From Turritopsis dohrnii (lineage: Eukaryota; Cnidaria; Hydrozoa; Anthoathecata; Oceaniidae), in NCBI GenBank assembly GCA_027922465.2, contig BQMF02000042.1:496001-560000 (forward strand): a DNA stretch of 64,000 nt, written 5' to 3'. The translations under genes and the position numbers were made by a program. Below, piece after piece: positions 3,450 through 45,440 of the stretch. Each line of letters opens with the position of its first letter. Position 1 is the first letter of the stretch. The notes beneath the pieces were generated by a model. The model worked only from the letters and a program-made list of their open reading frames with translations, searched no databases and was not told the DNA's origin.

Positions 3450-3593
3450 TAACTTTTTAATCGTTAAAAACCACATTTTATGCAACATTTCTTTCTATCG
3501 AATGTCCACATGATTTTTTACAGAAATCAAATAGTTGAACTTCTCCTTTCATTAATGTGATACATACAGGCTACATGGAAATTGTCCGAAAAT

Positions 3594-4627
3594 TCAGCAT
3601 AATAATTTCTTGGCTTTCTCTCGGAACCTTACATCAATAATGGAATATATAATCGGATTTATAGCAGTATGGAAGGAATAAGGTATGAATCCCACTAAAG
3701 TAATGACATCTTCCGCCGTTCTGGACATGTTATTACGGCCAACATGAACGATGATTATCCACGCTAAACGTAATGGAAGCACAAGAGCGACAAAAGCCAC
3801 CAATATGCTAATCAAAACCTTCATTCGCATTCGTATCCAGAACCAATTGGTTTTCTTCCCGTTACCAGAATAGTTGGGATGGCAGCTGCAAAACCAAGCA
3901 CACAAACTGTTGCAACCACAAATAAAAGGACCTGGTTTGTAAACCACTTGCTCATAGGATACAAAATTCCCACGTATCTTTCTAAGGTTACGCAAAATAT
4001 GAAGCCTATTTCAACAGTTTGACTCAAGTCCAAAACACTTAAAAGTCCTTTACATGATCCAGCGCTGTATATCCATTCACATGTCCACAACTCGGGTGTG
4101 GCTTTCACAATTATAAATACAGAGAATACAAAATCACTAAGGGCTAGACCACCAATCAAATATTGGTGTCGGGAACTTTTTCTGTGGTATTGAATGGTTA
4201 CTGTGACGACTAACAGGTTATTTAAAAAACCTACAAGACCGCTGATCAAATTAAAGACTGCTTTAGTTATTCGCACCGCCTTTCCATTAACGTAATATAG
4301 CATAGACGACGCATTTTCTACAGTCTTTCGAAATTGACATAATACATTTTGTTTGATACAATTACAGTCAGCATCTGCCACCTTAAACCTAATACACAAG
4401 TCTTTGAGTGTTAAACTTTCCTGAAATGGAGATGATGATTATCCGACTCCTTGATGATCCGGAAAGAGACACATTATTTGGCGAAGTTCATTAGAAGTGG
4501 TGTTTGGTAGACCTTGTCTACCCGTTCCTCCAGGTATGCCACGAAAAATCCCATCGTTCTGAAAATCTGCAGATCCTATCAATACAAACATAATCAACAC
4601 AAACGTCATATTAGCAGATAGATGCAT
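3594..4627 (-). pseudogene. Class A (rhodopsin-like) GPCR, broken: nonsense codon, frameshift and loss of TM5
   Basis: Reading from 4627, the first 62 codons start with a signal peptide (LIMFVLIGSADF). The frame is cut by a TAA at 4439-4441 and continues in the same frame through to 3821. TM1 (about 4230), TM2 with LALSDF, TM3 with the ERY form of the DRY motif followed by VGILYP, and TM4 are clear. After an extracellular GSGYECE segment the frame is lost near 3835. In the next frame TM6 (ISILVAFVALVLP) and TM7 with the NPIIY form of NPxxY follow, ending at 3594 after a short basic tail. Only about ten residues separate TM4 from TM6, where about 70-90 are expected, so extracellular loop 2, TM5 and intracellular loop 3 are deleted. 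The junction carries a short GAATGCGAATG repeat that could have promoted the deletion. The ligand class cannot be told. An unusual spliced or truncated receptor is possible but less likely given the stop codon. Confidence 0.85.
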
Positions 4628-22045: not shown

Positions 22046-22804
22046 TACCTTAAGGAAAGAAATTTTGGCGGGAAGAAATTTTGGCGGATTTTGCGGATTG
22101 CTTCAAAAACCGCCAAAATCCGCCAATATTTCTTCCCGCCAAAAATAGTTATTTTTGGAATCCGCCAAAATTAATTCTCGCCAAATTTGATTTAAATGCT
22201 CGTCCGCCAAAATTAATTCCCGCCAATATTGATTATTTTCGTGAACCGCCTATTTTTTTTCAAAAGGAATTAAAAGGTAAAATGCTAGAATTTCAGCATT
22301 GCGCATCATTATTTCATTTTAAATCAATTCGTGCTAACGATTGTTGGTCTCTTCTGACCCTTCCATTTTTTGCTGGCTCTCTCTGAACTGGTGAGAAAAA
22401 GGTTCTGATGTCTTTTTTTGCGGAGATCAGATGTTTTAGATGATTTCGTCAACGTGCAAGACAATGACGACGACGAAAAATGGGAAGATGATAACATTGA
22501 ACGAAACGCTTTCGATTTTATTACAGATGATGAATTTGATTCATAAATTACTGTAACAAAAACTTTTTTGAAAAAACGATCCATATGTTGGACTTTCCTC
22601 TTCTCATTTAAATATTTTGTGTCCTTATTCTATCGAACCACTTAATTGAAAATTGATTATTGGGGGCATCCGCCAAAATTAATTCCCGCCAAATTTATTT
22701 TTTTACTCGATCCGTCAAAATAAATTCCGCCAAATTGTGTCGAAATTGGGGGATGAGCTCATCCGCCAAAATTTCTTCCCGCCAAAATTCCTTCCGTTAA
22801 GGTA
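22046..22804. mobile_element. 759-bp TIR element with CCGCCAAAA subterminal motifs
   Basis: The ends are inverted repeats over about 44 bp, starting TACCTTAAGGAAAG on the left and ending CTTCCGTTAAGGTA on the right, each carrying two ATTTTGGCGG motifs. Many further CCGCCAAAATTAATTC-type motifs follow in 22105-22250 and 22665-22740, like subterminal transposase sites. TA flanks both ends, so the target duplication could be TA. The plus strand near 22440-22540 reads an acidic tail (VQDNDDDEKWEDDNIERN, then FDFITDDEFDS and a stop), which may be the C-terminus of a deleted transposase. Confidence 0.8.
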
Positions 22805-23505: not shown

Positions 23506-26500
23506 TTAAACTATAACATCAATTAAATGTAACATATACTCTATATACTTACTCAGATAGTGGAAAACACAAAACAGATTCCACATTGTTGTTAACGTAC
23601 TCGGATGGCGGCTTCCTAGTATTTCCTTTTGAATATCCAACACGTCCTCATACAATTTCATCGATTCATCGTACTTGCCTTGATCTCTCAAAACACCGGC
23701 CAGGTTGGACTGTGTCGTTAACGTACTCGGATGGCAGCTTCCTAGTATTTCCTTTAGAATATCCAACACGTCCTCATACAATTTCATCGATTCATCGTAC
23801 TTGCCTTGATGTTTCAAAACACCGGCCAGGTTGGACTGTGTCGTTAACGTACTCGGATGGCGGCTTCCTAGTATTTCCTTTTCAATATCCAACACGTCCT
23901 CATACAATTTCATCGATTCATCGTACTTGCCTTGAAGTGTCAAAACACCGGCCAGGTTGGACTGTGTCGTTAACGTACTCGGATGGCGGCTTCCTAGTAT
24001 TTCCTTTTGAATATCCAACACGTCCTCATACAATTTCATCGATTCATCGTACTTGCCTTGATGTTTCAAAACACCGGCCAGGCTGGACTGTGTCGTTAAC
24101 GTACTCGGATGGCGGCTTCCTAGTATTTCCTTTAGAATATCCAACACGTCCTCATACAATTTAATCGATTCATCGTACTTGCCTTGATCTCTCAAAACAC
24201 CGGCCAGGTTGGACTGTGTCGTTAACGTACTCGGATGGCGGCTTCCTAGTATTTCCTTTAGAATATCCAACACGTCCTCATACAATTTCATCGATTCATC
24301 GTACTTGCCTTGATGTTGCAAAACACCGGCCAGGTTGGACTGTGTCGATAACGTACTCGGATGGCGGCTTCCTAGTATTTCCTTTCGAATATCCAACACG
24401 TCCTCATACAATTTCATCGATTCATCGTACTTGCCTTGATTTTGCAAAACACCGGCCAGGTTGGACTGTGTCGATAACGTATCCGGATGGCGGCTTCCTA
24501 GTATTTCCTTTCGAATATCCAACACGTCCTCATACAATTTCATCGATTCATCGTACTTGCCTTGAACTCTCAAAACACCGGCCAGGTTGGACTGTGTCGT
24601 TAACGTACTCGGATGGCGCCTTCCTAGTATTTCCTTTAGAATATCCAACACGTCCTCATACAATTTCATCGATTCATCGTACTTGCCTTGATCTCTCAAA
24701 ACACCGGCCAGGTTGGACTGTGTCGTTAACGTACTCGGATGGCGGCTTCCTAGTATTTCCTTTTCAATATCCAACACGTCCTCATACAATTTCATCGATT
24801 CATCGTACTTGCCTTGATCTTGCAAAACACCGGCCAGGTTGGACTGTGTCGTTAACGTACTCGGATGGCGGCTTCCTAGTATTTCCTTTAGAATATCCAA
24901 CACGTCCTCATACAATTTCATCGATTCATCGTACTTGCCTTGATGTTTCAAAACACCGGCCAGGTTGGACTGTGTCGTTAACGTACTCGGATGGCGGCTT
25001 CCTAGTATTTCCTTTAGAATATCCAACACGTCCTCATACAATTTAATCGATTCATCGTACTTGCCTTGATCTCTCAAAACACCGGCCAGGTTGGACTGTG
25101 TCGTTAACGTACTCGGATGGCGGCTTCCTAGTATTTCCTTTAGAATATCCAACACGTTCTCATACAATTTCATCGATTCATCGTACTTGCCTTGATGTTG
25201 CAAAACACCGGCCAGGTTGGACTGTGTCGATAACGTACTCGGATGGCGGCTTCCTAGTATTTCCTTTCGAATATCCAACACGTCCTCATACAATTTCATC
25301 GATTCATCGTACTTGCCTTGATTTTGCAAAACACCGGCCAGGTTGGACTGTGTCGATAACGTATCCGGATGGCGGCTTCCTAGTATTTCCTTTCGAATAT
25401 CCAACACGTCCTCATACAATTTCATCGATTCATCGTACTTGCCTTGATCTTGCAAAACACCGGCCAGGTTGGACTGTGTCTCTAAGGTACTCGAATGACG
25501 ACTTCCAAAAATGGATTTTCGCATTTTATAGATTTCTGTAAATGTGATTGCAGCCTTACGATGGAATCCGTTATTGAGTTTTTTTGATGCTTTTTGTTCC
25601 TTCACCGCTATTGCTGTTGGATGTGATTTCGAAAGAAGAATTTTCACTTGTTTGCCCAAGTTTTTTAAGATTTCGTCGCTTTCACGAATTCTTCCCGCTG
25701 TTTTCAGTACTTCTGATAGTTTGAGTTTGACTTGATATGTAACTGGATTTTCATCGCCATAGTCAACTATACATTCTTTGTATGCGTTATGAATTGTTCT
25801 ATATGCTGTTTGATAATCACCTATAAGTAGATGAGAGTCACCAAGGCACAGTTGCAATTCTAATCCAATTTTACTTCTATTATGCGAGGGAATACTTTTT
25901 AGTAATGTTTTAATTTCTTCAAAGTTAGCAGTGTGCAATGATGTCTTTAGTTTTAACAACGTGATTCTTAATTGAGACTTGATGTCAATATCTTGGACGT
26001 TCCATATGTGGTTGTCTATGATATTTTGGAGTCCATCAAGATTTTCCTTACTTTCAAATAAACATTTACCATGTAGATAAAGAATTTTGGATTGGGTATT
26101 CGAGTTGACTGTTTGTATAGTATTAGGCTTGACAAGTTCTTCCATTATTTCTTTGCAGTTCCCATAATCGCCATTCCTGTTGAAGGACTTGGCTTTCAAA
26201 TAGTTAATGTAGATCAATTCTTCATTTGAAAATGTGAAGTGCTCTTGCCAACAATTTAAGTGATAGACAGCGTTTTCGAATTGGCCATGATTTAGCAATG
26301 ATCGTACTGATCCTTTAACAATATCAATGATTCCATCAATTCTTCCCATTTCGGTAGTGTTTGACAAAATACAGCGATAAATGTGATTAGACCAGTATTC
26401 TCCAAACTGAAAATGCTTGTGGTTCTGATTTTCTTTAATGGCATTTCTACACATGCTTATAACATCGCTGATGGCTCTTCGCTTCTCCATCACTGACATT

Positions 26501-27951
26501 GATTCTTGAATAACGGATTGCAATAACGAATGTATGGACATATTTTGAGTGGCCTCATCAAACTGTACCAAAGAATACTTAGATAGCAGGGATGTTGCGT
26601 CTAACAAAGCCTTTGACCCAACATCATCTAATTTTTGAAGGAAGGTTTGACTAATCGATTTCCCATTGATGATCGACATGATGAATGCGCTTCGTGTAGC
26701 GGTTGAATTTAGTTTTACTTCATTTAGTGCCATCTGATATGTGGCCCATATGGTCTTTTCGGTATTGATAGGATAATTTTCAGGATCGTCGACCATCGCA
26801 GCAGCATAATATGTTTTCAACATTTCCACGCATTTCTTAACCGTAATTCCTGTAGTTTTCATGTACGCAATAACCAGCTGCAATGCCAATGGAAGACATC
26901 CTATTTGTTCAGCTAATTCTTCATAGATTTCTGTGGCTTCTCCATTACTGCGCTCTTCTTTCAAAATTTTTACGGTAGCATCCCGTGCTAAAAAAGGTAG
27001 TTTTAAATGATCAAAGGGTTGTCCCCATTGCGTATTCTGGCTTGTAATCAATACATCTCCTTTATAGCCATTAAATTTGGGAAGATATCGCTTAATTTCT
27101 CCAAAATTTTTGACATTGTCCAACACAAGGATATGATTCCGTTGTGACAGAAATTCATATACTCTTTTAACCATAACAGTTCCACTGATGGTTTGACCGT
27201 TGCTGTCAAGGCTTGACAACCCAATCTCTTGCGAGACGTCCAGTAAATCTTTCTCGATGGTATTTTGGTTTTCTGCATTTACAAAAACGATGTTGTGGTT
27301 GTAGTACGATTTGAACTGGTGGCAGTAGGCGCGCGCAAGTTCCGACTTTCCGGACCCAGACAATCCGGATATCACCACTCTTCTTTTTCCATTAATAAAT
27401 GATTGATGCAGCCAAGAAATTTCGTTGTCTCTACCGTCAAAGTTGTTTACAACCTCTAGTAAACCAAATTCTATATTTTCTGGATCTTCATACATTGGAC
27501 GGTTAATGATGCGTTCTATTTCATTTTGTGGACAGCCTAAGTCGAATAAACAGTGGGAGAAAGTTTGGATGGTTTTTTGGAACTTTCCTGTTGAAATCAA
27601 GCCAAGGTGAGCGTTAGTATTCCTCAGTTTTCTGAATGTGTCAAGTTGGTTGATGTGGTCAACACTGAGGCTGCAACAGGTTCTCATGATCAAGATCACT
27701 GATGTGGCATCCAAAGTGTATACAAAAGTTTTCTTAGAACTTGGAAACAACATCTTCCACTGATCACTGCCAATTTCGCCTTTGTTCCTAAGTCTAGAAA
27801 AGTCCTTTATCGAATTACTCAAGAATTTAAAGAAATCTGTCGGGTCTTTGGGCACGTTATAGTCATTGTGCATAATCTCAATGATCCTTTTCAAACCGTA
27901 GCAAGCTAAGCGATCAATCCGTCTGCGCTTGTTGTCTTCACTTGAATTCAT
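23506..27951 (-). CDS. STAND/NLR-like receptor: HEPN-like + NB-ARC + near-identical TPR array
   Basis: An uninterrupted frame of 1,481 codons from ATG 27951. I chose this start because a clear acceptor (TTTTTCACAG) lies 7 nt upstream, so the longer open frame to 27999 is intron or 5' UTR. Residues about 15-135 resemble the DZIP3-type HEPN domain (QWKMLFP, then a RNTNAH motif fitting R-x4-H at 110-115). The NTPase follows: Walker A GLSGSGKS at 196-203, Walker B ILVLDNV near 274-280, VLITSQ near 300, GCLPLAL at 351-357, and an MHD-like IHSLL near 473. Residues 510-813 are diverged helical repeats. From about 814 come sixteen 42-residue kinesin-light-chain-type TPRs, of which 2-15 are nearly identical. 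The last is cut off: a strong donor CTGA/GTAAGTAT at 23553 suggests splicing there, so the final residues to 23506 are probably intronic. By analogy such proteins are cytosolic sensors that oligomerise on ligand binding. The ligand is unknown. Confidence 0.93.
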   Translation of the reverse strand: MNSSEDNKRRRIDRLACYGLKRIIEIMHNDYNVPKDPTDFFKFLSNSIKDFSRLRNKGEIGSDQWKMLFPSSKKTFVYTLDATSVILIMRTCCSLSVDHINQLDTFRKLRNTNAHLGLISTGKFQKTIQTFSHCLFDLGCPQNEIERIINRPMYEDPENIEFGLLEVVNNFDGRDNEISWLHQSFINGKRRVVISGLSGSGKSELARAYCHQFKSYYNHNIVFVNAENQNTIEKDLLDVSQEIGLSSLDSNGQTISGTVMVKRVYEFLSQRNHILVLDNVKNFGEIKRYLPKFNGYKGDVLITSQNTQWGQPFDHLKLPFLARDATVKILKEERSNGEATEIYEELAEQIGCLPLALQLVIAYMKTTGITVKKCVEMLKTYYAAAMVDDPENYPINTEKTIWATYQMALNEVKLNSTATRSAFIMSIINGKSISQTFLQKLDDVGSKALLDATSLLSKYSLVQFDEATQNMSIHSLLQSVIQESMSVMEKRRAISDVISMCRNAIKENQNHKHFQFGEYWSNHIYRCILSNTTEMGRIDGIIDIVKGSVRSLLNHGQFENAVYHLNCWQEHFTFSNEELIYINYLKAKSFNRNGDYGNCKEIMEELVKPNTIQTVNSNTQSKILYLHGKCLFESKENLDGLQNIIDNHIWNVQDIDIKSQLRITLLKLKTSLHTANFEEIKTLLKSIPSHNRSKIGLELQLCLGDSHLLIGDYQTAYRTIHNAYKECIVDYGDENPVTYQVKLKLSEVLKTAGRIRESDEILKNLGKQVKILLSKSHPTAIAVKEQKASKKLNNGFHRKAAITFTEIYKMRKSIFGSRHSSTLETQSNLAGVLQDQGKYDESMKLYEDVLDIRKEILGSRHPDTLSTQSNLAGVLQNQGKYDESMKLYEDVLDIRKEILGSRHPSTLSTQSNLAGVLQHQGKYDESMKLYENVLDILKEILGSRHPSTLTTQSNLAGVLRDQGKYDESIKLYEDVLDILKEILGSRHPSTLTTQSNLAGVLKHQGKYDESMKLYEDVLDILKEILGSRHPSTLTTQSNLAGVLQDQGKYDESMKLYEDVLDIEKEILGSRHPSTLTTQSNLAGVLRDQGKYDESMKLYEDVLDILKEILGRRHPSTLTTQSNLAGVLRVQGKYDESMKLYEDVLDIRKEILGSRHPDTLSTQSNLAGVLQNQGKYDESMKLYEDVLDIRKEILGSRHPSTLSTQSNLAGVLQHQGKYDESMKLYEDVLDILKEILGSRHPSTLTTQSNLAGVLRDQGKYDESIKLYEDVLDILKEILGSRHPSTLTTQSSLAGVLKHQGKYDESMKLYEDVLDIQKEILGSRHPSTLTTQSNLAGVLTLQGKYDESMKLYEDVLDIEKEILGSRHPSTLTTQSNLAGVLKHQGKYDESMKLYEDVLDILKEILGSCHPSTLTTQSNLAGVLRDQGKYDESMKLYEDVLDIQKEILGSRHPSTLTTMWNLFCVFHYLSKYIEYMLHLIDVIV
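23584..25515 (-). repeat. 126-bp tandem repeat array encoding TPR units
   Basis: About 15.5 units of exactly 126 bp, kept in frame. Units 2-5 and 9-12 are the same series. The seven-unit block 25386-24505 and its copy 24504-23623 are related by an 882-bp shift. Differences between units cluster at unit positions 8 (S/D), 11 (T/S), 21 (Q/R/K/T), 22 (D/N/H/V/L) and 40 (R/L/E/Q). The rest is almost invariant at the DNA level. Confidence 0.95.
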
Positions 27952-27996
27952 TCTTAACTGTGAAAAAGAAAATACATATAAACATATTGAAGAAAA

Positions 27997-28263
27997 CAAA
28001 TTTAGTATTTTACTGATATTCTTGCGATTACCGACTCATATTTAAATTGTAATATCACCACGTTACAAATAAGCCACGACACGATAACTACGCACGCCTT
28101 CAATGATCACAAACTCACATGTGCAAGACTAATATGTAACGACATTTATACAAATACATATACACCCTATGGGACACAAAATATGCGCAAACGACTCCAC
28201 GGATTCCGTGTCCATGGAGACAAAATGTGAACTGAACATAACACGAAATACATAAACACAACA
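27997..28263 (-). repeat. 3' LTR of BEL/Pao element
   Basis: On the element strand it begins TGTTGTGTTTATG and ends CTAAATTTG. It ends 46 bp upstream of the STAND gene start codon, in the same orientation. Confidence 0.92.
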
Positions 28264-28445: not shown

Positions 28446-30945
28446 TTATACGAATTTTCCAACGATTTCTAGTAATGTTATCAGATTCAGTAACACCACA
28501 TCTCCAATTTGAAAATTCCTTGTCCTTTTTTGCCAAATTTGGCGTTTTTGCAAACTTTGGAGGTACTCTTTTTGCCATCTTTCCCAGAACTCGTCAGCTA
28601 TGTGCTGTACACGTTTCCATTGTTTGCGGAAATACAGAGATGATACTTCAAAGTTTCCTGGTAGCGGTAGTACAACCTTCGATTTTGAAGTCAGCAACAA
28701 CATCGGTGTAATTGGCACCGGACTAAAAGGATCATTTATGCTTTCGATGGAAAGAGGTCTTGAATTGACAATATTCTCCGCTTCCATCAGTAAAGTGGCG
28801 AGAGATTCGTCGGTTTAGGAAGCACCATGAGTCAGAAGTAGGATTGCTCTCGTTGATCGAATTAGTCTTTCCCATGTACCCCCCCCCCCCCCCTATCAGA
28901 AGCATGTGGGTGGATTCTTTGCTTATCCATTTCAGCAAGCAATCTCTTGAGTTCATTTTCGGCACCAACAAAATTCGTTCCATTATCACATCGTAATTCT
29001 CTGATGTTGCCTCAACGAGCGATGAATCTACGCAAACATAAAATGAATGAATCGGTTTCAATAGTATGGGCGACTTCAATGTGGATAACTCTACATGCCA
29101 TACACGTGAAGATGCAGCCGTATCGTTTTATCATTTTTCTCCATTGTTTATTAAGGAACGGTCCGAAAAAATCTACCTGACAGTAAGTGAATGGTGGACT
29201 AGGAGATAATCTATTTTTTGGTAAATCTGCCATTATTTGACTTCCTAATTTCCCTCTCAGCATACGACATATTACTTATTTATGGATGATGGACTTGACT
29301 GTGTTATTTGCATAAATAACCCAAAAACCATTTTGCCTCAATTCATTGAGAGTGCCACATCTTTCTGAATGTTTGACATTTACGTGGCACCATAATATGA
29401 TTAATCGAGTTATGTGTTGATTTTTAGGTAAGATAATTGGATGCTTCAAATTGAAATCAACATCCATATTTGAAAGTCATCCTCCGCAATTTACTTTGCT
29501 TCTTTTTCGCATTAGATATGAAACGAAGTACGAAAGCCATTGTTCTCACACACTTCATATAACTTGAGAATTTGTTGAAAAACGTTAAAACTGTATTCGT
29601 TATGGTCGTAGCCAACACATTTATATTTCTCTTCAGTTCTTTATCGTTCGAATCAATCGTAAAATTTTTTAATGGATCAGGCCATGTATCTGGCTTTTGC
29701 CACAAAAAAACTGGTCCTTGGAACCAACGTGTGCTGCGTTTGATTTGATAAGTCGCAAGACGTCATCAGCAGGATTTAAACAAGATGACACATATCTCCA
29801 TTGTCCTGCTTTGGATGAATTGGACTCGGTTAACCACGTTGATCTGAAAACGTTTTGCTTCATTAGAGATATAACCAAGAACAACATTGCTATCAGTCCA
29901 GAAAAATTCTTCGTCAATTTTTACATCTTGAAGTTCATTCTTTAAAAGTTGACTACTTTTCACAGCAACTGTCGCAGCAGTGAGTTCCAATCTGGGAATT
30001 GTGTAATCGCAGCAGTACACCAAATAAAGAATTAATGAAATCAGGTCCTTGCATTAGTTGATTATTTAAAGACACTCCGTTGTATTTTGCGCTACAATCA
30101 ATAACCACTCTAATTTTCCCGGGTTTGTGAGGGTGATAGACGCCATGACGGGGTAAATACCAAACTTTTCCATCTTTTCCCTTTAATTGATCGGATGGTA
30201 TTCTTCGAGTGATTCCTTTACTGAATAGGTCATTCATAAATGTGACGTAATGATCTTTAAATTCTGAATTCTTCTCAAGTTTATGCTTAATCCAACGACA
30301 TCTGACGGCTACCTGTTCATGGTTATTTGGCATGAAACTATTGAATGGCAAAGGGAGTTGATAATGCCCATCAACAAGCACTATTTCCTGATCCATAGTA
30401 CTCATGAATTGTACATCTTCCTGTGAGAAGAGGTGATTTTTCTTTGAGAAAAGCGAAGATTGTTGATTTGTAAATGATTCTTCGAATTTCGTTGTGTACA
30501 TTTGACGCAAGATTTTTTCAATGGTTACATCGTCTAACTTATCTTCAACGATAAAGTGATGTGAGGCAAGTGAATCGTTATGGACCTCCTTCACGGCTAT
30601 TCTATTGCATGAAATTTTGTTATTTGGAGGAAGATTATTAACTGGTCCTACAATGCTCCATCCAAGCCTAGATCTGAAAGCATAAGGACCACCATCTTTG
30701 CCAGGTATCAACTCTAACGGTTCTTGAGCAGCTGGACAGTTTGCACCAATTGGCAATCCTACTGGCAAATTTTTATCTTTGACTGCACAGAATTCCACAA
30801 TGTCTCTTAAATGGGTCCATTGTTTTATTTTCTTTGGGGTTGGAATTTCCTCACGATCAATAGGCAAATTATATCTGCTATAAGTCTTCGGCAGAGAGAC
30901 ATGCTCGTGATTTACTGGATTTGTAACAACTAATCCATCTATCAT
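28446..30945 (-). pseudogene. BEL/Pao pol remnant (RT, RNase H, integrase) with internal deletion
   Basis: 30945-29953 carries the linker and start of RT (SRLGWSIVGPV, then RVVIDCSAKYNG). At about 30020 it jumps straight to the RNase H segment (IPRLELTAATVAV, then FFWTDSNVVLGYI). The RT palm with its YVDD-type box, roughly 300 residues in the family, is absent. Integrase follows: zinc-finger region 29467-29276, core near 29200-29012 (QVDFFGPF, then HIEVAH), and a C-terminal IGDVVLL near 28490. A protease-like LDNCSQGTF sits just upstream at about 31060. Frameshifts separate the blocks, one of them at a run of C at about 28879-28893. It cannot encode an active polymerase. Confidence 0.88.
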
Positions 30946-31059
30946 CTGTTATATCTCACTGTCTTCTCCTGTCATTGTTTTGATGACGATTTCCGTACTT
31001 GTTCCCTTCAAATTCATTTGTTTGAGAACATCATTTGTGACAAACGTCCCTTGACTACA

Positions 31060-33223
31060 GTTGTCAAGCATAGCATAAACTTTCAATTTCTTCATGGAGG
31101 CTGGATGAGATAAAACTACTGGAACAATTGACAGGCTTTATAACACCAGGTCTGGTATTGGTTTAATTGCAGGTGATTTCTTTTGAAATAGTGCACCCAT
31201 TCGTCAATTTATTATCTCTATCTTTGTTTTCTTTATTCATTACATATGAAAGGCTTGTGTCCTCTCTTTTATCTCCTTCAGTTCATCCATTTTCTTGACT
31301 CGTATTTGCAGTGTAGCCATGTAACATGGTAGGATGTTTTCGTTTGCATATAACACAAGTTAACTTCATTCTGCAGCAACGAAAACTGTGCAATCTGGAT
31401 ATAGGATTTAAACATCCGTAACAAAGTTTCTGCTCTGATACGAATTTGTTACGCTCAGAAACATCCTTCTTGAGAATTTTCTGACTATCCTTTAAGCTGT
31501 GTGGATTTTTTCAGGCACAGCTTTCGTTCTTTGTTGCATTCATTCCAATTGCATTTGCTTTCATAGTTTTTCCTAGAATTTCTTTCTTTCCTTTTAGGTC
31601 ATTTATTGCTTCTTTGGCGTAAAGTGGATCGTTCACCAGTGTAGTTTCATTGTCTATAAATTGAACGAAGGGAACCTGTAAGGGTAGCTTTTCTGTTGTG
31701 AGACTGTCTTGTCTGTAACACTTTTCTGTTCCATCTTTCTTGTAGAGATGAAGGAAGTTTAGATTGCATTATGCGTAATGTATCAGGTGCATTTAGCTCA
31801 CTCTTAATACGACCCGATGACATACCACTGTGGCAGCGCACAAGGAAATTATGAAACTTTCGGATTTCCTTCGGAGTCGCCATGCTTCACTGCAGGCCAA
31901 TCTCTCAATTCCTTTCCATAGGCGTTAACAAGTCGAAATGGGTCACCATATCGTTTCTTGAGTAGTTTCTTTGCATTACTGTAACAAACATTTGAACTGT
32001 CACGTATACAACCCTTTATCAGATCTTTTGGTTCTCCATGACAGTATTTTATAAGTCTTGTAAGTTTTTCTCTTTCATCAGATATTTTACGTTCAACTGC
32101 CTCTTCGAATGATTCCATGAAATATTGGCAATCTAGAGGATCTCCATCGAATTTTTCGCTTTCAATCTCCGGCGCACTTTGTTGGAGTAGCAGGTGGCAT
32201 AACAATTTCCCAGTTGAATTTTCGTCGTTTAATGAGTTGGTTTTTCTGGATGATTCCCATTTCGCATTGTCAAGACAGCTTTCACGCTCACATCTGCCGC
32301 ATGCATACAAATCGCCTTTACAGACACCTGATCTTTCAAAGCGTCTGTAAAATACGTAATGACAACACCTACAACATAGAGCACCCATATTGCACTCATC
32401 AGCTTTGTTTTTGCTCTTAACATATTGATCAGAACCCAGATTATGATTATCGTATTCACTTTTTCTTGTAACATCGTCATGAGTAGGATGCTCAAGTAAC
32501 TTCTCCGTTCCCTTTAACCATTCAGTGCATTTCGAAGAAGTATCAGCTATTGGAATTCTTAATTTGCTTCCTTGACTTAGTGAGGAAACATAGTGTTCAT
32601 CTTCTTCTTGATAAATATTCATTTTTGCTTTTGCCTTCGCGATTTCTTCCTGGATGCAGAGACGCTGGAGGTTTGATTTTGCAGAATTGATTAATTCTTT
32701 GGCCGCTAATTTTTTATCTGTTTTTAACTGTGCTGCTTGCTCTCGTGGAAATGCGACTTTTCGTTCCTCGCGACTTTACAGACCTATTGGCTTTCAGCAG
32801 ATCGCTTGAAGAGAGCAATTTACGATCGGATAGTTCTGATTTCTTCGTTACTTTAGCGGGTTCGATATCGCCAACGTTAGGTACTTCAATGTTCGAAGTA
32901 TTATTTACCTTTGTTGCAGAGTCATCCATCCATTTTCTTGCGAAAACAAGTGCTTCCACAACCTCTCTATCTAGTTTAACAATAATTTCTTCACATTCGA
33001 TCTTTTCTTCCTCCGAGACCAACAGCGCGCAATATTCTTTATGTACAGTCACCAATTCTTTCATTCCAATATCCAGTTTCGAGTAATACTTCTCTACCAT
33101 TTCGAAATCACCAACACCTGTAGCATCATAAATCTTCCCAACTAACTGGTTGATTTTCCTTATTAAAAATGTTCTTGCTTTCATCTTTAATGACAAAATA
33201 TATTGTTCCCCTTTTTCTGTCAT
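31060..33223 (-). pseudogene. BEL/Pao gag and protease-like remnant
   Basis: 33223-32714 is an acidic/basic helical gag-like N-terminus. 32622-31849 and 31883-31647 continue gag in shifted frames (for example ESEKFDGDPLDCQYFMESF, typical of BEL/Pao gag). A zinc-knuckle-like stretch (LCYGCLNP, then TCVICKRKHPTMLH) lies near 31420-31310, before the protease-like block. Stops and shifts make it non-functional. Confidence 0.8.
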
Positions 33224-33259: not shown

Positions 33260-36200
33260 AATAATCCAATAAGCAAAAGAATAGCAAGCAAATGTAGCAA
33301 GTAAATGTAGCAAGCTTCTAAATTGCAGCACCAATAAGCTGCAAACAAGATATCTTCGTTTCGAACAGCAGATATGAGGGAGATAAACAACTACGTCGAT
33401 GAATAACAGGACAACGACGGCGACAACAAGACCTGACTGATTGACAGGTGCAAATGTAGCAAGCTTGAAACTTACAGCAACAACAGACTGCAAACAGGAT
33501 ATCTTCCTTTCGAATAGCAGATATGACGGAGATAAACTATTTTAGACGATGATTAACAGGACAACCACGGCGACAACCAGACCTGACTGATTGACAGGTG
33601 CAAATGTAGCAAGCTGGAAACTTACAGCAACAACAGTCTGCAAACAGGATATCTTCCTTTCGAACAGCAGATATCAGGGAGATAAACAACTACGTCGATG
33701 TATTACAGGACAACGACGGCGACAACAAGACCTGACTGATTGACAGGTGAAAATGTAGCAAGCTTGAAACTTACAGCAACGACAGACTGCAAACAGGATA
33801 TCTTCCTTTCGAACAGCAGATATGTGGGAGATAAACAAGCTTCGTCGATGAATATCAGGAGAGCGACGGCAACAACAAAACCTGACTGATTGACAGGTGC
33901 AAATGTAGCAAGCTTGAAATTTACAGCAACAGCAGACTGCAAACAGGATATCTTCCTTTCGAACAGCAGATATCAGGGAGATAAACAACTACGTTGATGA
34001 TTTACAGGACAACGACGGCGACAACAAGACCTGACTGATTGACAGGTGCAAAATGTAGGAAGCTGGAAATTTACAGCAACAACAGACTGCAAACAGGATA
34101 TCTTCCTTTCGAACAGCGGATATGAGGGAGATAAGCATGCTTCGGCGATGAATAACAGGACAACGACGGCAACAACAAGACCTGACTGATTGACAGGTGC
34201 AAATGTAGCAAGCTTGAAACTTACAGCAACAACAGTCTGCAAACAGGATATTATCCTTTCGAACAGCAGATATCAGGGAGATAAACAACTACGTTGATGA
34301 TTTACAGGACAACGATGGCGACAACAAGACCTGACTGATTGACAGGTGCAAATGTAGCAAGCTTGAAACTCACAGCAACAACAGACTGCAAACAGGATAT
34401 CTTCCTTTCGAACAGCAGATATCAGGGAGATAAACAACTACGTTGATGATTTACAGGACAACGACGGCGACAACAAGACCTGACTGATTGACAGGTGCAA
34501 AATGTAGCAAGCTGGAAATTTACAGCAACAACAGACTGCAAACAGGATATCTTCCTTTCGAACAGCAGATATCAGGGAGATAAACAACTACGTCGATGAA
34601 TACCAGGACAACCACGGCGACAACAAGACCTGACTGATTGACAGGCACAAATGTAGCAAACTGGAAACTTACAGCAACAACAGACTGCAAACAGGATATC
34701 TTCCTTTCGAACAGCGGATATGAGGGAGATAAACATGCTTCGTCGATGAATACCAGGACAACCACGGCGACAACAAGACCTGACTGATTGACAGGTGCAA
34801 ATGTAGCAAGCTTGAAACTTACAGCTACAACAGACTGCAAACAGGATATCTTCCTTTCGAATAGCAGATATGACGGAGATAAACTATTTTAGACGATGAT
34901 TAACAGGACAACCACGGCGACAACCAGACCTGACTGATTGACAGGTGCAAATGTAGCAAGCTTGAAACTTACAGCAACAACAGTCCGCAAACAGGATATC
35001 TTCCTTTCGAACAGCAGATATCAGGGAGATAAACAACTACGTTGACGATTTACAGGACAACGACGGCGACAACAAGACCTGACTGATTGACAGGTGCAAA
35101 TGTAGCAAGCTTGAAACTTACAGCAACAACAGACTGCAAACAGGATATCTTCCTTTCGAACAGCAGATATCAGGGAGATAAACAACTACGTTGATGATTT
35201 ACAGGACAACGACGGCGACAACAAGACCTGACTGATTGACAGGTGCAAAATGTAGCAAGCTGGAAATTTGCAGCAACAACAGACTGCAAACAGGATATTT
35301 TCCTTTCGAACAGCAGATATCAGGGAGATAAACAACTACGTCGATGAATTACAGGACAACCACGGCGACAACAAGACCTGACTGATTGACAGGCACAAAT
35401 GTAGCAAACTGGAAACTTACAGCAACAACAGACTGCAAACAGGATATCTTCCTTTCGAACAGCGGATATGAAGGAGATAAACATGCTTCGTCGATGAATA
35501 CCAGGACAACGACGGCGACAACAAGACCTGACTGATTGACAGGTGCAAATGTAGCAAGCTGGAAACTTACAGCAACAACAGTCTGCAAACAGGATATCTT
35601 CCTTTCGAACAGCGGATATGAGGGAGATAAACATGCTTCGTCGATGAATAACAGGACAACGACGGCGACAACAAGGCCTGACTGATTGACAGGTGCAAAT
35701 GTAGCAAGCTTGAAACTTACAGCAACAACAGTCTGCAAACAGGATATCTTCCTTTCGAACAGCAGATATCAGGGAGATAAACTATTTTAGACGATGATTA
35801 ACAGGACAACCACGGCGACAACAAGACCTGACTGATTGACAGGTGCAAATGTAGCAAACTTGAAACTTACAGCAACAACAGACAGCAAACAGGATATCTT
35901 CCTTTCGAACAGCAGATATGACGGAGATAAACCAACCTCGACGATGAATTACAGAACACCCACGGCTACAACAAGACCTGACTGATTGACAGGTGCAAAT
36001 GTAGCAAGCTTGAAACTTACAGCAACAACAGACTGCAAACAGGATATCTTCCTTTCGAACAGCAGATATCAGGGAGATAAACGACTACGTGGATGAATAA
36101 CAGGACAACGACGGCGACAACAAGACCTGACTGATTGACAGGTGTAAATGTAGCAAGCTTGAAACTTACAGCAACAACAGACTGCAAACAGGATATCTTC

Positions 36201-36560
36201 CTTTCGAACAGCAGATATGACGTAGAGAAACTATTTTCGACGATGATTAACAGGACAACCACGGCGACAACAAAACCTGACTGATTGACAGGTGCAAATG
36301 TAGCAAGCTCGAAACTTACAGCAACAACAGACAGCAAACAGGATATCTTCCTTTCGAAGAGCAGATATGAGGGAGATAAACAGCTACGTCGATGAATAAC
36401 AGGACAACGACGGCTACAACAAGACCTGACTGAAAGACAGGTGTAAATGTAGCAAGCTTGAAACTTACAGCAACAACAGACTGCAAACAGGATATCTTCC
36501 TTTCGAACAGCAGATTTGACGGAGAGAAACTAAGTTTGTTGATAAATAACAGAACAACGA
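33260..36560. repeat. ~150-bp minisatellite, about 22 copies, in the retrotransposon leader
   Basis: I count 22 occurrences of the GATAT(C/T)-TTCC block at a spacing of about 148-153 bp from about 33343 to 36490. Every unit carries CCTGACTGATTGACAGG or a close variant, and most carry a GATATC...GATATC pair. Units differ by substitutions and small indels, so the period is not a multiple of three. The long minus-strand open frames across the array are by-products. Confidence 0.95.
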
Positions 36561-36717
36561 CATGATTCGCAGGCGTGATCTTTGATCAAAATCTTTTAAT
36601 CGTTATCGTTGAGTGGCAGGACAATGGCGGTATATCTTCAATCGTTTTTATGTTTCACTGTTCCAGCTGATGAATTTACAACTTTGAAGTGGCCGAAGAA
36701 ATTGGGGAATGTGGAAG

Positions 36718-39496: not shown

Positions 39497-42400
39497 ACAA
39501 GCCCCCACAAAATATTTGGGAAAACCCCCTTCCCCCTCATCTCAATGTTGTATGAAGTGCTGCTAGGCCCCCGACTACTTTTCTTCACCCCAGAAACATT
39601 CTGTTATCTTTCAACATAAGCAACATTGAATTTGGGGGCAGGGGGGACCTGGCTTATCAACTTGCAGGGGCATTTTCCATTTTAAAACCAATATTTTAAG
39701 TTTTCCCAATATATTTTTGTGGAGGGTTGTGTGAAAATTTCAAACTGAAATGCTTGATTGCTGGGCAACCGTGTGTGATAGGCCTTTGATTTTTGGTTCT
39801 GTAAACTACCATTGATCTTAAAATTGCAGTGATAAACAGTTTTTCGAAATATCCGTAATGGCGGACTTAGTTGTGACAGTTTGGCTTTGCACCATGTGGA
39901 TCTTCTTCTTGTTGGAAAATCTAAACAGTTCTTCATATAACTAACTTGTTTCGATCATATGGACATAATTTTCGTATCTCTCTTTCCCAGAAAACCTCTC
40001 TTTCTTGAAAGAAACGTTTTCTTTCCAAAGTAAACAAAGAAAATTAGCAGTTTGATATTCCCCCCTTTGGATGAAGACAGCATATAGAAAGACTCCTTTG
40101 AAATGCCTGTACATTTTAAGATATCTGCATCAAGAGATGAACATATCAGGAAGAACAGTTTGCAAAATGTACCCAATGTATTCATCATCAAGTATTTATT
40201 GACATGCTAAGAAAGCTACCTATTCTGTCTGGCAACTCACCTCAAGATCCACAAAAAAAGGGAAATCTACCCAGACTAACTAAAAGAAATAAGTGTCCTC
40301 TTATCCGTCAAATACCCAAGTTGCCAGCTGATGCTAGTTCATTCACTGTAAAAAATAAGGCGTGTCGCAGCAGATATACCCAAAGATTTACACGATTCAT
40401 GATATGAAACTGTCCATTTTGCAGACCTTGTTCTTATGAGAGAACTATAATAAGTAATTTCAAACTTAGGGATATCATTGTACACGTTACACACACGTTA
40501 CGCACACGTTACACACACGTTACATTTAATGTTCTAAGAAATCTATAGGGAATTTGACACGTTACACACGTTACACACTTTTTCTTATAAAAAGATATGT
40601 ATTTGTTTTTTAAAAAAAAGTTGATGTAACGTGTGTAACGTGTTCCAAAACAGTGTACTTTATTGAAAAGTCAGCCAAAAAACAAGTGTAACGTGTGCGT
40701 AACGTGTGTGTAACGTGTGTAACGTGTGAAACACTTCTGTTTCTACTTTCATTATGTCACATTTTGTTTTGTTTGAGCCATCCTACAGTAGCAGTCGTAA
40801 CTAAGCACAAGTCCATAAACTAAATAAACAAAACCCCTTTTATATAATCTATGTATATATATATATACCTAATACATGAGGCAATGACTTAAACTGGACT
40901 CCAAGACTGTTTCTCAATGGTAGTAAAGGAGTACAGGGAATTATAAGCACAATTATTTTGATGATGAGATATCTCCTTCAAGATAATGACCTTGTATTTC
41001 ACTCTCTATAGTATATATAGTCAAGTTTATTTCTGCTGCCTTCAAATACTTGATACATTTTTTTTTGGCCTGAATAATCATAACTGTATGTTTGTACATA
41101 CTTTCTATAGCTTTGGCTATCAATGGTGTGGCACAGTGACATGCATAACCATTTTAAACTTGTATGGGATACATTGGCAGCTCAAACTTGATGGTATGCT
41201 TATTTGTTTATCTTTTTAATAAGACTGTCTGGAAACCATGACTGACCTTTGTGTGGCCATGTAGATCTGTTTTTTGGCCAGAAAGTCTTTGTGAAATGCC
41301 TGTGTGTTATTGAAATGCAGTAAATAGAGATCTTTTTAATATTTTGTAGGCAAACCTCTGTTCATTTGTTTTTCTGAATTCAGACAAGCCCCCACAAAAT
41401 ATTTGGGAAAACCCCCTTCCCCCTCATCTCAATGTTGTATGAAGTGCTGCTAGGCCCCCGACTACTTTTCTTCACCCCAGAAACATTCTGTTATCTTTCA
41501 ACATAAGCAACATTGAATTTGGGGGCAGGGGGGACCTGGCTTATCAACTTGCAGGGGCATTTTCCATTTTAAAACCAATATTTTAAGTTTTCCCAATATA
41601 TTTTTGTGGAGGGTTGTGTGAAAATTTCAAACTGAAATGCTTGATTGCTGGGCAACCGTGTGTGATAGGCCTTTGATTTTTGGTTCTGTAAACTACCATT
41701 GATCTTAAAATTGCAGTGATAAACAGTTTTTCGAAATATCCGTAATGGCGGACTTAGTTGTGACAGTTTGGCTTTGCACCATGTGGATCTTCTTCTTGTT
41801 GGAAAATCTAAACAGTTCTTCATATAACTAACTTGTTTCGATCATATGGACATAATTTTCGTATCTCTCTTTCCCAGAAAACCTCTCTTTCTTGAAAGAA
41901 ACGTTTTCTTTCCAAAGTAAACAAAGAAAATTAGCAGTTTGATATTCCCCCCTTTGGATGAAGACAGCATATAGAAAGACTCCTTTGAAATGCCTGTACA
42001 TTTTAAGATATCTGCATCAAGAGATGAACATATCAGGAAGAACAGTTTGCAAAATGTACCCAATGTATTCATCATCAAGTATTTATTGACATGCTAAGAA
42101 AGCTACCTATTCTGTCTGGCAACTCACCTCAAGATCCACAAAAAAAGGGAAATCTACCCAGACTAACTAAAAGAAATAAGTGTCCTCTTATCCGTCAAAT
42201 ACCCAAGTTGCCAGCTGATGCTAGTTCATTCACTGTAAAAAATAAGGCGTGTCGCAGCAGACATACCCAAAGATTTACACGATTCATGATATGAAACTGT
42301 CCATTTTGCAGACCTTGTTCTTATGAGAGAACTATAATAAGTAATTTCAAACTTAGGGATATCATTGTACACGTTACACACACGTTACGCACACGTTACA

Positions 42401-45390
42401 CACACGTTACATTTAATGTTCTAAGAAATCTATAGGGAATTTGACACGTTACACACGTTACACACTTTTTCTTATAAAAAGATATGTATTTGTTTTTTAA
42501 AAAAAAGTTGATGTAACGTGTGTAACGTGTTCCAAAACAGTGTACTTTATTGAAAAGTCAGCCAAAAAACAAGTGTAACGTGTGCGTAACGTGTGTGTAA
42601 CGTGTGTAACGTGTGAAACACTTCTGTTTCTACTTTCATTATGTCACATTTTGTTTTGTTTGAGCCATCCTACAGTAGCAGTCGTAACTAAGCACAAGTC
42701 CATAAACTAAATAAACAAAACCCCTTTTATATAATCTATGTATATATATATATACCTAATACATGAGGCAATGACTTAAACTGGACTCCAAGACTGTTTC
42801 TCAATGGTAGTAAAGGAGTACAGGGAATTATAAGCACAATTATTTTGATGATGAGATATCTCCTTCAAGATAATGACCTTGTATTTCACTCTCTATAGTA
42901 TATATAGTCAAGTTTATTTCTGCTGCCTTCAAATACTTGATACATTTTTTTTTGGCCTGAATAATCATAACTGTATGTTTGTACATACTTTCTATAGCTT
43001 TGGCTATCAATGGTGTGGCACAGTGACATGCATAACCATTTTAAACTTGTATGGGATACATTGGCAGCTCAAACTTGATGGTATGCTTATTTGTTTATCT
43101 TTTTAATAAGACTGTCTGGAAACCATGACTGACCTTTGTGTGGCCATGTAGATCTGTTTTTTGGCCAGAAAGTCTTTGTGAAATGCCTGTGTGTTATTGA
43201 AATGCAGTAAATAGAGATCTTTTTAATATTTTGTAGGCAAACCTCTGTTCATTTGTTTTTCTGAATTCAGACAAGCCCCCACAAAATATTTGGGAAAACC
43301 CCCTTCCCCCTCATCTCAATGTTGTATGAAGTGCTGCTAGGCCCCCGACTACTTTTCTTCACCCCAGAAACATTCTGTTATCTTTCAACATAAGCAACAT
43401 TGAATTTGGGGGCAGGGGGGACCTGGCTTATCAACTTGCAGGGGCATTTTCCATTTTAAAACCAATATTTTAAGTTTTCCCAATATATTTTTGTGGAGGG
43501 TTGTGTGAAAATTTCAAACTGAAATGCTTGATTGCTGGGCAACCGTGTGTGATAGGCCTTTGATTTTTGGTTCTGTAAACTACCATTGATCTTAAAATTG
43601 CAGTGATAAACAGTTTTTCGAAATATCCGTAATGGCGGACTTAGTTGTGACAGTTTGGCTTTGCACCATGTGGATCTTCTTCTTGTTGGAAAATCTAAAC
43701 AGTTCTTCATATAACTAACTTGTTTCGATCATATGGACATAATTTTCGTATCTCTCTTTCCCAGAAAACCTCTCTTTCTTGAAAGAAACGTTTTCTTTCC
43801 AAAGTAAACAAAGAAAATTAGCAGTTTGATATTCCCCCCTTTGGATGAAGACAGCATATAGAAAGACTCCTTTGAAATGCCTGTACATTTTAAGATATCT
43901 GCATCAAGAGATGAACATATCAGGAAGAACAGTTTGCAAAATGTACCCAATGTATTCATCATCAAGTATTTATTGACATGCTAAGAAAGCTACCTATTCT
44001 GTCTGGCAACTCACCTCAAGATCCACAAAAAAAGGGAAATCTACCCAGACTAACTAAAAGAAATAAGTGTCCTCTTATCCGTCAAATACCCAAGTTGCCA
44101 GCTGATGCTAGTTCATTCACTGTAAAAAATAAGGCGTGTCGCAGCAGACATACCCAAAGATTTACACGATTCATGATATGAAACTGTCCATTTTGCAGAC
44201 CTTGTTCTTATGAGAGAACTATAATAAGTAATTTCAAACTTAGGGATATCATTGTACACGTTACACACACGTTACGCACACGTTACACACACGTTACATT
44301 TAATGTTCTAAGAAATCTATAGGGAATTTGACACGTTACACACGTTACACACTTTTTCTTATAAAAAGATATGTATTTGTTTTTTAAAAAAAAGTTGATG
44401 TAACGTGTGTAACGTGTTCCAAAACAGTGTACTTTATTGAAAAGTCAGCCAAAAAACAAGTGTAACGTGTGCGTAACGTGTGTGTAACGTGTGTAACGTG
44501 TGAAACACTTCTGTTTCTACTTTCATTATGTCACATTTTGTTTTGTTTGAGCCATCCTACAGTAGCAGTCGTAACTAAGCACAAGTCCATAAACTAAATA
44601 AACAAAACCCCTTTTATATAATCTATGTATATATATATATACCTAATACATGAGGCAATGACTTAAACTGGACTCCAAGACTGTTTCTCAATGGTAGTAA
44701 AGGAGTACAGGGAATTATAAGCACAATTATTTTGATGATGAGATATCTCCTTCAAGATAATGACCTTGTATTTCACTCTCTATAGTATATATAGTCAAGT
44801 TTATTTCTGCTGCCTTCAAATACTTGATACATTTTTTTTTGGCCTGAATAATCATAACTGTATGTTTGTACATACTTTCTATAGCTTTGGCTATCAATGG
44901 TGTGGCACAGTGACATGCATAACCATTTTAAACTTGTATGGGATACATTGGCAGCTCAAACTTGATGGTATGCTTATTTGTTTATCTTTTTAATAAGACT
45001 GTCTGGAAACCATGACTGACCTTTGTGTGGCCATGTAGATCTGTTTTTTGGCCAGAAAGTCTTTGTGAAATGCCTGTGTGTTATTGAAATGCAGTAAATA
45101 GAGATCTTTTTAATATTTTGTAGGCAAACCTCTGTTCATTTGTTTTTCTGAATTCAGACAAGCCCCCACAAAATATTTGGGAAAACCCCCTTCCCCCTCA
45201 TCTCAATGTTGTATGAAGTGCTGCTAGGCCCCCGACTACTTTTCTTCACCCAGAAACATTCTGTTATCTTTCAACATAAGCAACATTGAATTTGGGGGCA
45301 GGGGGGACCTGGCTTATCAACTTGCAGGGGCATTTTCCATTTTAAAACCAATATTTTAAGTTTTCCCAATATATTTTTGTGGAGGGTTGT
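39497..45390. repeat. 1,887-bp unit in 3.1 near-identical tandem copies
   Basis: Copies start at 39497, 41384 and 43271, with a partial copy at 45158-45390. Period is exactly 1,887 bp. I noticed very few differences (for example AGATATACC versus AGACATACC near 40375, and one missing C near 45250). Each unit repeats the same small frames: 84 and 78 codons minus, 67 and 77 codons plus, none recognisable. Each also has one CACGTTAC motif cluster and a short (TA)n. Possible natures are a recent local amplification, an inserted circular or rolling-circle element, or an assembly artefact. Confidence 0.97.
40482..40733. repeat. Symmetric CACGTTAC motif cluster (one per 1,887-bp unit)
   Basis: CACGTTAC-type motifs lie in the order four, two, gap, two, four. 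The first six point one way (40482-40523, 40557-40575) and the last six are inverted (40626-40642, 40686-40730), around an AT-rich centre. The same cluster recurs 1,887 and 3,774 bp downstream. The layout recalls replication-origin iterons or transposase-binding arrays. Confidence 0.9.
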
Positions 45391-45440
45391 AGTCTTGTTT
45401 TGGAGGCAATTTTACATTTCACTTTTTTCACGATTTTCTT

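Follow-up and report, generated by a model that had tools for sequence, protein, structure and literature searches.

Near-identical tetratricopeptide repeats with diversified groove positions in a predicted NB-ARC receptor family of the hydrozoan Turritopsis dohrnii

Introduction

Fungal NOD-like receptors (NLRs) include proteins whose tetratricopeptide repeat (TPR) units are highly identical to one another and mostly 42 amino acids (aa) long, with positive selection on the concave face and polymorphism in unit number (PMC4986451). High internal conservation is defined in that account as more than 85% identity between repeats over at least 100 aa (PMC4986451). Among cnidarians, coral NB-ARC proteins are described as carrying mostly TPRs, and N-terminal DZIP3-like HEPN domains are reported in large number (PMC10236652); a survey of Hydra viridissima gives 103 NACHT/NB-ARC proteins with TPRs (PMC7642931), and three reports document expansions of NB-ARC/TPR and DZIP3-HEPN genes in the phylum (PMC10236652, PMC7642931, PMC8260672). 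Haplotype-variable HEPN and NACHT genes are reported from the pearl oyster (PMC9646362), and a Nematostella study of 94 tandem-repeat proteins, from which Pfam repeat domains were mostly excluded, finds Ka/Ks above 1 in about 40% of them (PMC2805694). Here we analyse a gene of Turritopsis dohrnii. It lies in a stretch of 64,000 nucleotides (nt), hereafter the window (assembly GCA_027922465.2, contig BQMF02000042.1, positions 496,001 to 560,000 of the forward strand), and is predicted to encode a HEPN domain, an NB-ARC switch and a long array of near-identical TPR units. All counts below come from this one genome assembly. The question they address is how animals lacking antibodies diversify intracellular recognition.

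A TPR array with exclusively non-synonymous differences in its homogenised core

The array sits within a minus-strand open reading frame (ORF) at 23506-27999 (1497 aa) and comprises the following parts.

23587..25506, minus strand: array of 42-aa TPR_10/TPR_12 units (Tandem Repeats Finder, TRF: period 126 bp, 15.2 copies, 96% matches)
25396..25521, minus strand: unit 1, the N-terminal edge, with codons 2-14 diverged, synonymous changes at five codons and array-like later codons
23632..25395, minus strand: units 2-15, the homogenised core, in which all differences are non-synonymous and fall on codons 1, 11, 14, 24, 25 and five minor codons
24892..25395, minus strand: units 2-5, a block found again as units 9-12 (7-unit shift, longest exact match 289 bp)
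24010..24513, minus strand: units 9-12, the second copy of the block, with 2 nt differences
23506..23631, minus strand: beginning of unit 16 together with the C-terminal cap (TMWNLFCVFHYLSKY...), the cap being common to several paralogs

An initial annotation, made from the letters of the window, had described units 2-15 as near-identical 126-bp repeats differing only at non-synonymous sites, and both statements hold. The period found by TRF is the same, units differ pairwise at no more than 9 of 126 nt, which places the array within the definition of high internal conservation, and 14 variable nucleotide columns in 10 codons contain 0 synonymous differences. The annotation had further placed most changes at its unit positions 8, 11, 21, 22 and 40. 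In the numbering used here (unit codon = annotated position + 3, with 40 becoming codon 1) these are codons 11, 14, 24, 25 and 1, and the clustering of changes on few codons is confirmed (P = 0.005). The single changes that it listed reappear unaltered as the minor variable codons (S7R, R8C, N18S, M33I and D38N).

At least 17 changes are needed to account for units 2-15, distributed 3, 3, 3, 2, 1, 1, 1, 1, 1 and 1 across the 10 codons. The probability that none of 17 is synonymous is 0.012, 0.005 or 0.002 for kappa of 1, 2 or 4, and the synonymous differences at five codons of unit 1 indicate that silent change is possible in this gene. Twelve of the 14 core units are distinct, and every unit of the window array stays in frame. 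Since units 2-5 reappear as units 9-12, the changes are not 14 independent samples; with units 9-12 left out, 16 events remain and the pattern is unchanged. The two block copies differ at codon 38 (unit 3 versus 10) and at codon 18 (unit 5 versus 12). A frameshift as the origin of the final part unit (TMWNLFCVFHYLSKY...) was ruled out, the C-terminal cap being common to several paralogs.

Evidence for selection on concave positions across nineteen paralogous arrays

A protein search with the N-terminal 810 aa returned at least 50 places, including the window gene, with coverage of 600 residues or more; 25 of these are 67-100% identical, 1 is at 61%, 22 are at 42-46% and 2 at 26%. We took 27 paralog loci first (L027-L053) and added L054-L056, which together with L052 served as a check in a second subfamily. 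ORFs numbered 27 (the window included, none in L047); 22 of them contain 6 to 36 detected TPR units, L030 contains 2 in the chosen frame and four contain 0, the longest frame spanning 2331 codons. Arrays with at least 8 detected units were analysed after dropping the first and last unit (only the first in the window tests). This left 19 arrays, without L030, L043, L047, L048, L049, L050, L051 and L053.

Within these 19 arrays, non-synonymous variation is greatest, in descending order, at codons 24, 25, 21, 14, 1, 11 and 17. The five codons of the initial annotation, fixed beforehand from the window, rank 1, 2, 4, 5 and 6 of 42. A second set of positions came from the literature, in which TPR positions 2, 5, 9, 12, 13, 33 and 34, exposed on the concave face, are named as the most variable (PMC1261162). 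We used the five helix-A positions TPR 2, 5, 9, 12 and 13, equivalent to codons 14, 17, 21, 24 and 25, and left out TPR 33 and 34, whose counterparts in the longer 42-residue unit cannot be assigned with certainty. This literature set ranks 4, 7, 3, 1 and 2 of 42. In the paralogs, TPR 9 and TPR 5 are hypervariable too, neither of which varies in the window array.

Non-synonymous (N) and synonymous (S) changes were counted by parsimony on per-array trees for the 19 arrays, ignoring recombination between units. The pooled counts were as follows.

Literature concave five: N 432.6, S 84.4, omega 1.60, binomial P 1.8e-5
Five codons of the initial annotation: N 463.8, S 72.2, omega 1.47, P 8e-4
Scaffold (codons in neither set): N 775.5, S 556.5, omega 0.41

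Among all 850,668 five-codon sets, non-synonymous changes equal or exceed those of the literature set in 33 and those of the annotated set in 4. At the level of single loci (0.5 added to each count), concave omega is above 1 in 16 of 19 arrays and above scaffold omega in 19 of 19. Across 12 mutation models (kappa 1-4, GC-to-AT bias 1-3), concave omega ranges from 1.64 to 2.09 and scaffold omega from 0.41 to 0.67. The distant subfamily gives a comparable contrast, with pooled values of 1.47 versus 0.40 in four arrays (L052, also among the 19, and L054-L056). These computations support the conclusion that the scaffold is maintained by selection, which at concave helix-A positions instead promotes change; diversifying selection on the groove, proposed from the window, is replicated in 19 other arrays together with purifying selection on the scaffold.

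Relaxed constraint would offer a simpler account, in which concave surface residues merely tolerate change and diversity as such is not selected. Concave positions are reported to be the most variable in TPRs generally (PMC1261162), the window alone provides only P ~0.005 for 0 synonymous among 17 changes, and most single codons miss significance after correction. Relaxation, however, caps omega at 1, and the pooled concave estimate lies above this limit both in the base analysis and over the 12 models; the ratio of 3.86 between the arrays of the nearest paralogs, described below, also exceeds it. We regard relaxed constraint as unlikely.

Targeted hypermutation of the hypervariable codons, for instance by a diversity-generating retroelement (DGR), would dispense with selection altogether. 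In the window, variation at codons 1, 24 and 25 is confined to the first two bases, and in multicellular bacteria DGRs are reported to act on conflict systems by diversifying their putative antigen sensors (PMC10907252). The paralogs, by contrast, carry synonymous changes at the same codons (S 14.0 at codon 24, 9.2 at codon 25 and 15.8 at codon 1), and hypermutation is very improbable as the source of the pattern.

Structure of the array and the putative ligand groove

An AlphaFold (AF2) model of units 2-9, built from a 4-row gapless alignment of one window row and three bacterial rows, forms a TPR superhelix with a predicted local distance difference test (pLDDT) score of 95.4, helix A occupying unit positions 10-25 and helix B positions 29-46. 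The 42PR structure is reportedly described in Marold 2015. Two other modelling attempts were set aside: a single-sequence AF2 model of the array region was discarded (pLDDT 45, with helix/strand units unlike TPR), and an 18-row alignment was dropped because its register was lost.

On helix A, non-synonymous changes favour one face (P 0.017). Measured from the mean direction, codon 14 lies at 1 degree, codon 21 at -19, codon 25 at 21, codon 18 at 41, codon 17 at -59, codon 11 at 61 and codon 24 at -79 degrees. Changes on helix B have no facing preference (P 0.67). The initial annotation had regarded its variable positions as mostly groove-facing. This holds for its positions 11, 21 and 22 (TPR 2, 12 and 13), which are established concave or ligand-contact positions. 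Position 8 is not a known contact, but lies in helix A on the same side as the accepted contacts, at the 61 degrees given above for codon 11, and position 40 (codon 1) lies near the end of helix B.

The first 12 Foldseek rows are kinesin light chain (KLC) TPR domains, several with cargo peptides, and ranks 28 and 30 are the Podospora near-identical-repeat protein 4y6w/4y6c. VIA-align Z scores are 24.2 for KLC1 5oj8, 23.5 for 6fuz and 23.4 for Podospora 4y6c. Twelve of the KLC1 peptide-site residues named in PMC6214655 fall on unit codons 14, 17, 18, 21, 22, 24, 25 and 29, with 12 of 12 letters in agreement; N469 lies outside the compared stretch. Two structural alignments preserve this register at their first aligned residues, which pair model residue 14 with 214 in 6fuz and model residue 136 with 210 in 5oj8.

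Codon 18 behaves differently from the hypervariable positions around it. It encodes Asn in 343 of 386 inner units (23 arrays) and is under purifying selection (omega 0.30, P 0.0006). Its KLC1 equivalents, N344 and N386, are described as members of asparagine pairs that hydrogen-bond the peptide main chain (PMC6214655). A fixed backbone clamp at codon 18 beside variable codons 14, 17, 21, 24 and 25 would fit the needs of a modular peptide reader. We tentatively suggest, as a possibility well short of probable, that the arrays may be modular readers of extended peptides, in which the codon-18 Asn would grip the backbone, the variable neighbours would read side chains and unit shuffling would rewrite the code. 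If so, an animal without antibodies would possess, inside its cells, a rapidly changing set of peptide receptors whose activation leads to RNA cleavage.

Homogenisation and turnover of units

Mean synonymous difference (pS) is 0.185 within arrays and 0.396 between arrays. The window gene and its nearest paralog are extreme cases of homogenisation. This paralog, L027, is located on the same contig 113 kb away and matches over at least 5.5 kb at 96.6%, a minimum length because the match extends to the edge of the fetched stretch. Their N-termini differ by 40 N and 34 S changes (dN 0.021, dS 0.068), their arrays by 72.5 N and 5.5 S (ratio 3.86). The contrast between array and N-terminus gives a Fisher P of 8.7e-8 on rounded counts, a value that is too small because copied units inflate the array counts, although its direction is clear. 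Over 210 paralog pairs, N-terminal dN/dS has a median of 0.37.

Comparison of the units themselves gives mean differences of 5.07 when window and L027 units are paired in order and 4.94 over all pairs, with 0 identical units shared. Unit-by-unit correspondence is therefore lost between the two arrays while the N-termini are conserved. Because both arrays have equal unit numbers, this suggests gene conversion more than unequal crossing-over for the pair. In the four-gamete test, codon pairs 1-24 and 1-25 were the only positives among 10, and recurrent mutation could also explain them. Overall, the computations support exchange within the array as what keeps the units of the window gene nearly identical. 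The concerted evolution put forward in the initial annotation is clear in the window gene and L027; its unevenness elsewhere is considered below.

Domain architecture and the receptor family

The remaining features of the window gene are listed below.

23506..27951, minus strand: coding region from the first in-frame ATG ahead of the HEPN domain to the stop (1481 codons + stop)
27658..27831, minus strand: DZIP3/hRUL138-like HEPN domain (PF18738), predicted RNase effector (residues 41-98 of the searched piece; E 4.9e-07, 30.1 bits against a curated cut-off of 27)
27607..27624, minus strand: Rx4H motif RNTNAH, predicted HEPN RNase active site (RN-x-x-[AS]H across family ORFs)
26821..27381, minus strand: NB-ARC ATPase domain (PF00931; E 2.1e-09, 37.5 bits against a cut-off of 23.5)
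27343-27366, minus strand: intact P-loop GLSGSGKS, within NB-ARC
27115-27126, minus strand: VLDN motif, within NB-ARC
26884-26901, minus strand: GCLPLA motif, within NB-ARC
26491..26685, minus strand: DUF7779 (PF25000), between NB-ARC and the TPRs (borderline, 27.2 bits against a cut-off of 27)

By its domain matches, the gene is predicted to encode a DZIP3-type HEPN, an NB-ARC, a DUF7779 and a TPR array, in that order. The HEPN match lies above its cut-off and is accompanied by RNTNAH, Rx4-6H being given as the HEPN RNase site (PMC3710099), so that both hallmarks of a DZIP3/hRUL138-like HEPN RNase appear in the translated sequence. An NB-ARC with an intact P-loop and an effector-switch-repeat layout within one ORF are likewise as expected for a signal-transducing STAND/NLR protein. 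The frame is open from stop to stop from 28035, and its stop-to-stop length of 1509 aa recurs in a paralog that is 95% identical across the N-terminal 810 aa.

These motifs are widely retained in the family. RN-x-x-[AS]H occurs in 24 of 27 ORFs, the exceptions (L040, L045 and L053) being frames without that part, and the P-loop in 25 of 27, L045 and L053 again being frames without it. Read from aligned columns, V[LF]D[DN] is found in 21 of 22 aligned ORFs (exception L045). A fixed-pattern scan of the 27 ORFs gave 0 for Walker B and 8 for GLPL; since fixed ranges skip motifs, the aligned columns are preferred. Bacterial relatives are distant: 14 loci at 24-40% identity, and 217 plasmid records, all below 60%, with 20 listed at 34.5-44.2%. 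Two of the loci therefore supplied rows for the structural alignment, and the others were treated as background. Viral contigs gave 5 pattern matches and 0 relatives.

This architecture bears on whether the protein is a receptor or an adaptor. As an adaptor, it would be a KLC-like or scaffold array with units diversified to fit numerous proteins of the animal itself. KLC TPRs are indeed the nearest solved structures, both in sequence and in the Foldseek listing. The N-terminus of the window gene, however, carries HEPN and NB-ARC, the RNase motif and P-loop persist through the family at the frequencies just given, and turnover between recent paralogs would be surprising for adaptors of own proteins. 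An adaptor function is thus unlikely.

Interpretation

Collectively, the window gene is probably one member of a lineage-expanded set of hydrozoan intracellular receptors of STAND/NLR type, belonging to a family with fungal-type high internal conservation and a predicted RNase effector. It looks like a fast-changing recognition system of the kind described in fungi. Judged from architecture and evolution, an immune or allorecognition role is plausible. The TPR superhelix would bind a peptide or protein in its groove; binding might free the NB-ARC switch for oligomerisation, which in turn would activate the HEPN RNase, so that RNA is cut and the cell is stopped or killed. Shuffled units with different groove residues could provide new binding surfaces, as proposed for fungal NLRs with high internal conservation, and candidate targets include a microbe, a virus or a non-self cell. 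Turritopsis dohrnii can be kept as clones and repeatedly rejuvenates, and its polyps are colonial; with such a biology, pathogen defence and self/non-self recognition are both plausible pressures.

Several observations weigh against this interpretation. Concave omega is below 1 in L035, L045, L046 and L055 (0.69). Codon 21 is strong alone (P 1.7e-6) and is the sole codon that survives correction for 42 tests, codons 24 and 25 reaching nominal P values of 0.0035 and 0.014; the per-codon test proposed at the outset thus favours diversification when concave codons are pooled and singly only at codon 21. Silent changes are scarce at codons 4 and 41 as well, neither of which is a groove position (nominal P 0.007 each), and codons 1 and 11 vary strongly without an established groove facing. 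The highest VIA-align Z scores belong to other TPR proteins (APPBP2 29.4, LGN 27.0). In 8 of 20 arrays (L027, L033, L035, L037, L039, L042, L045 and L046), the synonymous difference to the closest other array is smaller than the mean among the array's own units, indicating that homogenisation is uneven and, in several members, weak, old or shared between loci. Internal stops occur in 6 of 50 family places.

Finally, the assembly derives from PacBio reads with short-read polishing, in which near-identical repeats can be misplaced. Collapsed or mis-corrected repeats could seem homogeneous, their differences being errors: the assembly is stated to have used FALCON, Arrow and Pilon (PMC9835754), repeats of this kind are hard to assemble, and the units 2-5/9-12 block copy could be a mis-join. 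Errors, however, are not expected to be purely non-synonymous or to strike identical codons at 19 further loci. Polishing with short reads should make the pattern fainter and not produce it, and frame is kept in all window units. An assembly or polishing artefact is very unlikely.

Surrounding sequence and additional observations

The window has a GC content of 35.7%, compared with 34.7% given for assembly TUR_r2.0.1 of Turritopsis dohrnii (PMC9835754). Directly upstream of the receptor gene, at 28446-32775 on the minus strand, lie pieces with DUF5641 above and DUF1759 just below cut-off, which we take, from these domain types, to be BEL/Pao-like. Downstream, 22057-22795 contains repeated CCGCCAAAATT-type motifs, possibly of a non-autonomous element, and L027 has short stretches similar to this region. 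Tandem repeats comprise a satellite-like array at 33303-36561 (period ~150 bp, 21.8 copies, 90% matches), a 26-bp unit at 62410-62673 (10.2 copies, 96% matches) and an 1887-bp unit at 39497-45456. A 300-nt sample of the last is 100% identical three times at exact 1887-bp spacing and recurs at a fourth place at 65%; the region also contains ACACGTTACAC-type short repeats. At 3594-4438, on the minus strand, a rhodopsin-family G-protein-coupled receptor (PF00001) occupies two overlapping frames, one above and one below cut-off, reflecting either a frameshift or an intron.

Beyond the window, a mitochondrial contig of 28281 bases (G000:C880; L057, L058) carries cox1 and cytb close together, with cox1 in two frames near 6572; it is longer than the linear mitochondrial DNA given for Turritopsis lata (15,047 bp). 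The cox1 sequence contains nine in-frame TGA codons and translates well when AGR is read as Arg and ATA as Ile at conserved positions, in keeping with a genetic code of cnidarian or sponge type. A search for GFP as a taxonomic marker had no hit in this genome and none in the 14 controls, so that its outcome carries no weight. A bacterial locus, L001 (Phycisphaerales), has an array at 3497-5386 made up of fifteen TPR units of 42 aa, moderately diverged but in exact register, a possible outgroup for the groove test.

Comparison with known systems

Kinesin light chain shares unit length, fold (42PR) and ligand groove with the window array, but is described with six diverged units and an N-terminal coiled coil that binds the heavy chain (PMC6214655), in place of HEPN and NB-ARC. 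Coral TPR-CHAT proteins likewise form an expanded family, with widely variable TPR length in haplotype-variable regions (PMC12314368); they differ in their CHAT effector, and groove analysis is not among the descriptions of them that we found.

The NB-ARC/TPR and DZIP3-HEPN receptors of corals and Hydra viridissima have the same domain set as the window gene, and the published descriptions found do not include near-identical units or site-specific diversifying selection. In the titles and abstract openings of the papers that our searches listed, we did not find groove-specific diversifying selection reported for animal NB-ARC/TPR receptors. To that extent the combination appears to be new, namely fungal-style groove-diversified repeats within an animal NB-ARC/TPR and DZIP3-HEPN family, each half being known already.

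The fungal NLRs provide the closest evolutionary parallel, and the likeness drawn in the initial annotation is supported (PMC4986451). Common to both are an NB-ARC with high-identity, mostly 42-aa TPR arrays and concave variable sites under positive selection, here evident in the pooled contrast of 1.60 versus 0.41. The families differ in that the effector here is HEPN and the host an animal, that the fungal genes show unit-number polymorphism whereas turnover here is known between paralogs of one genome, and that the window family, unlike the fungal one, is without a known incompatibility role. Across 20 arrays of a single genome (the array of the window gene and 19 others) the same pattern of sites is seen, which provides a list of loci and codons for direct testing. 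A cnidarian thus appears to share the fungal solution of homogenised repeats with diversified binding residues, here combined with a predicted RNase effector.

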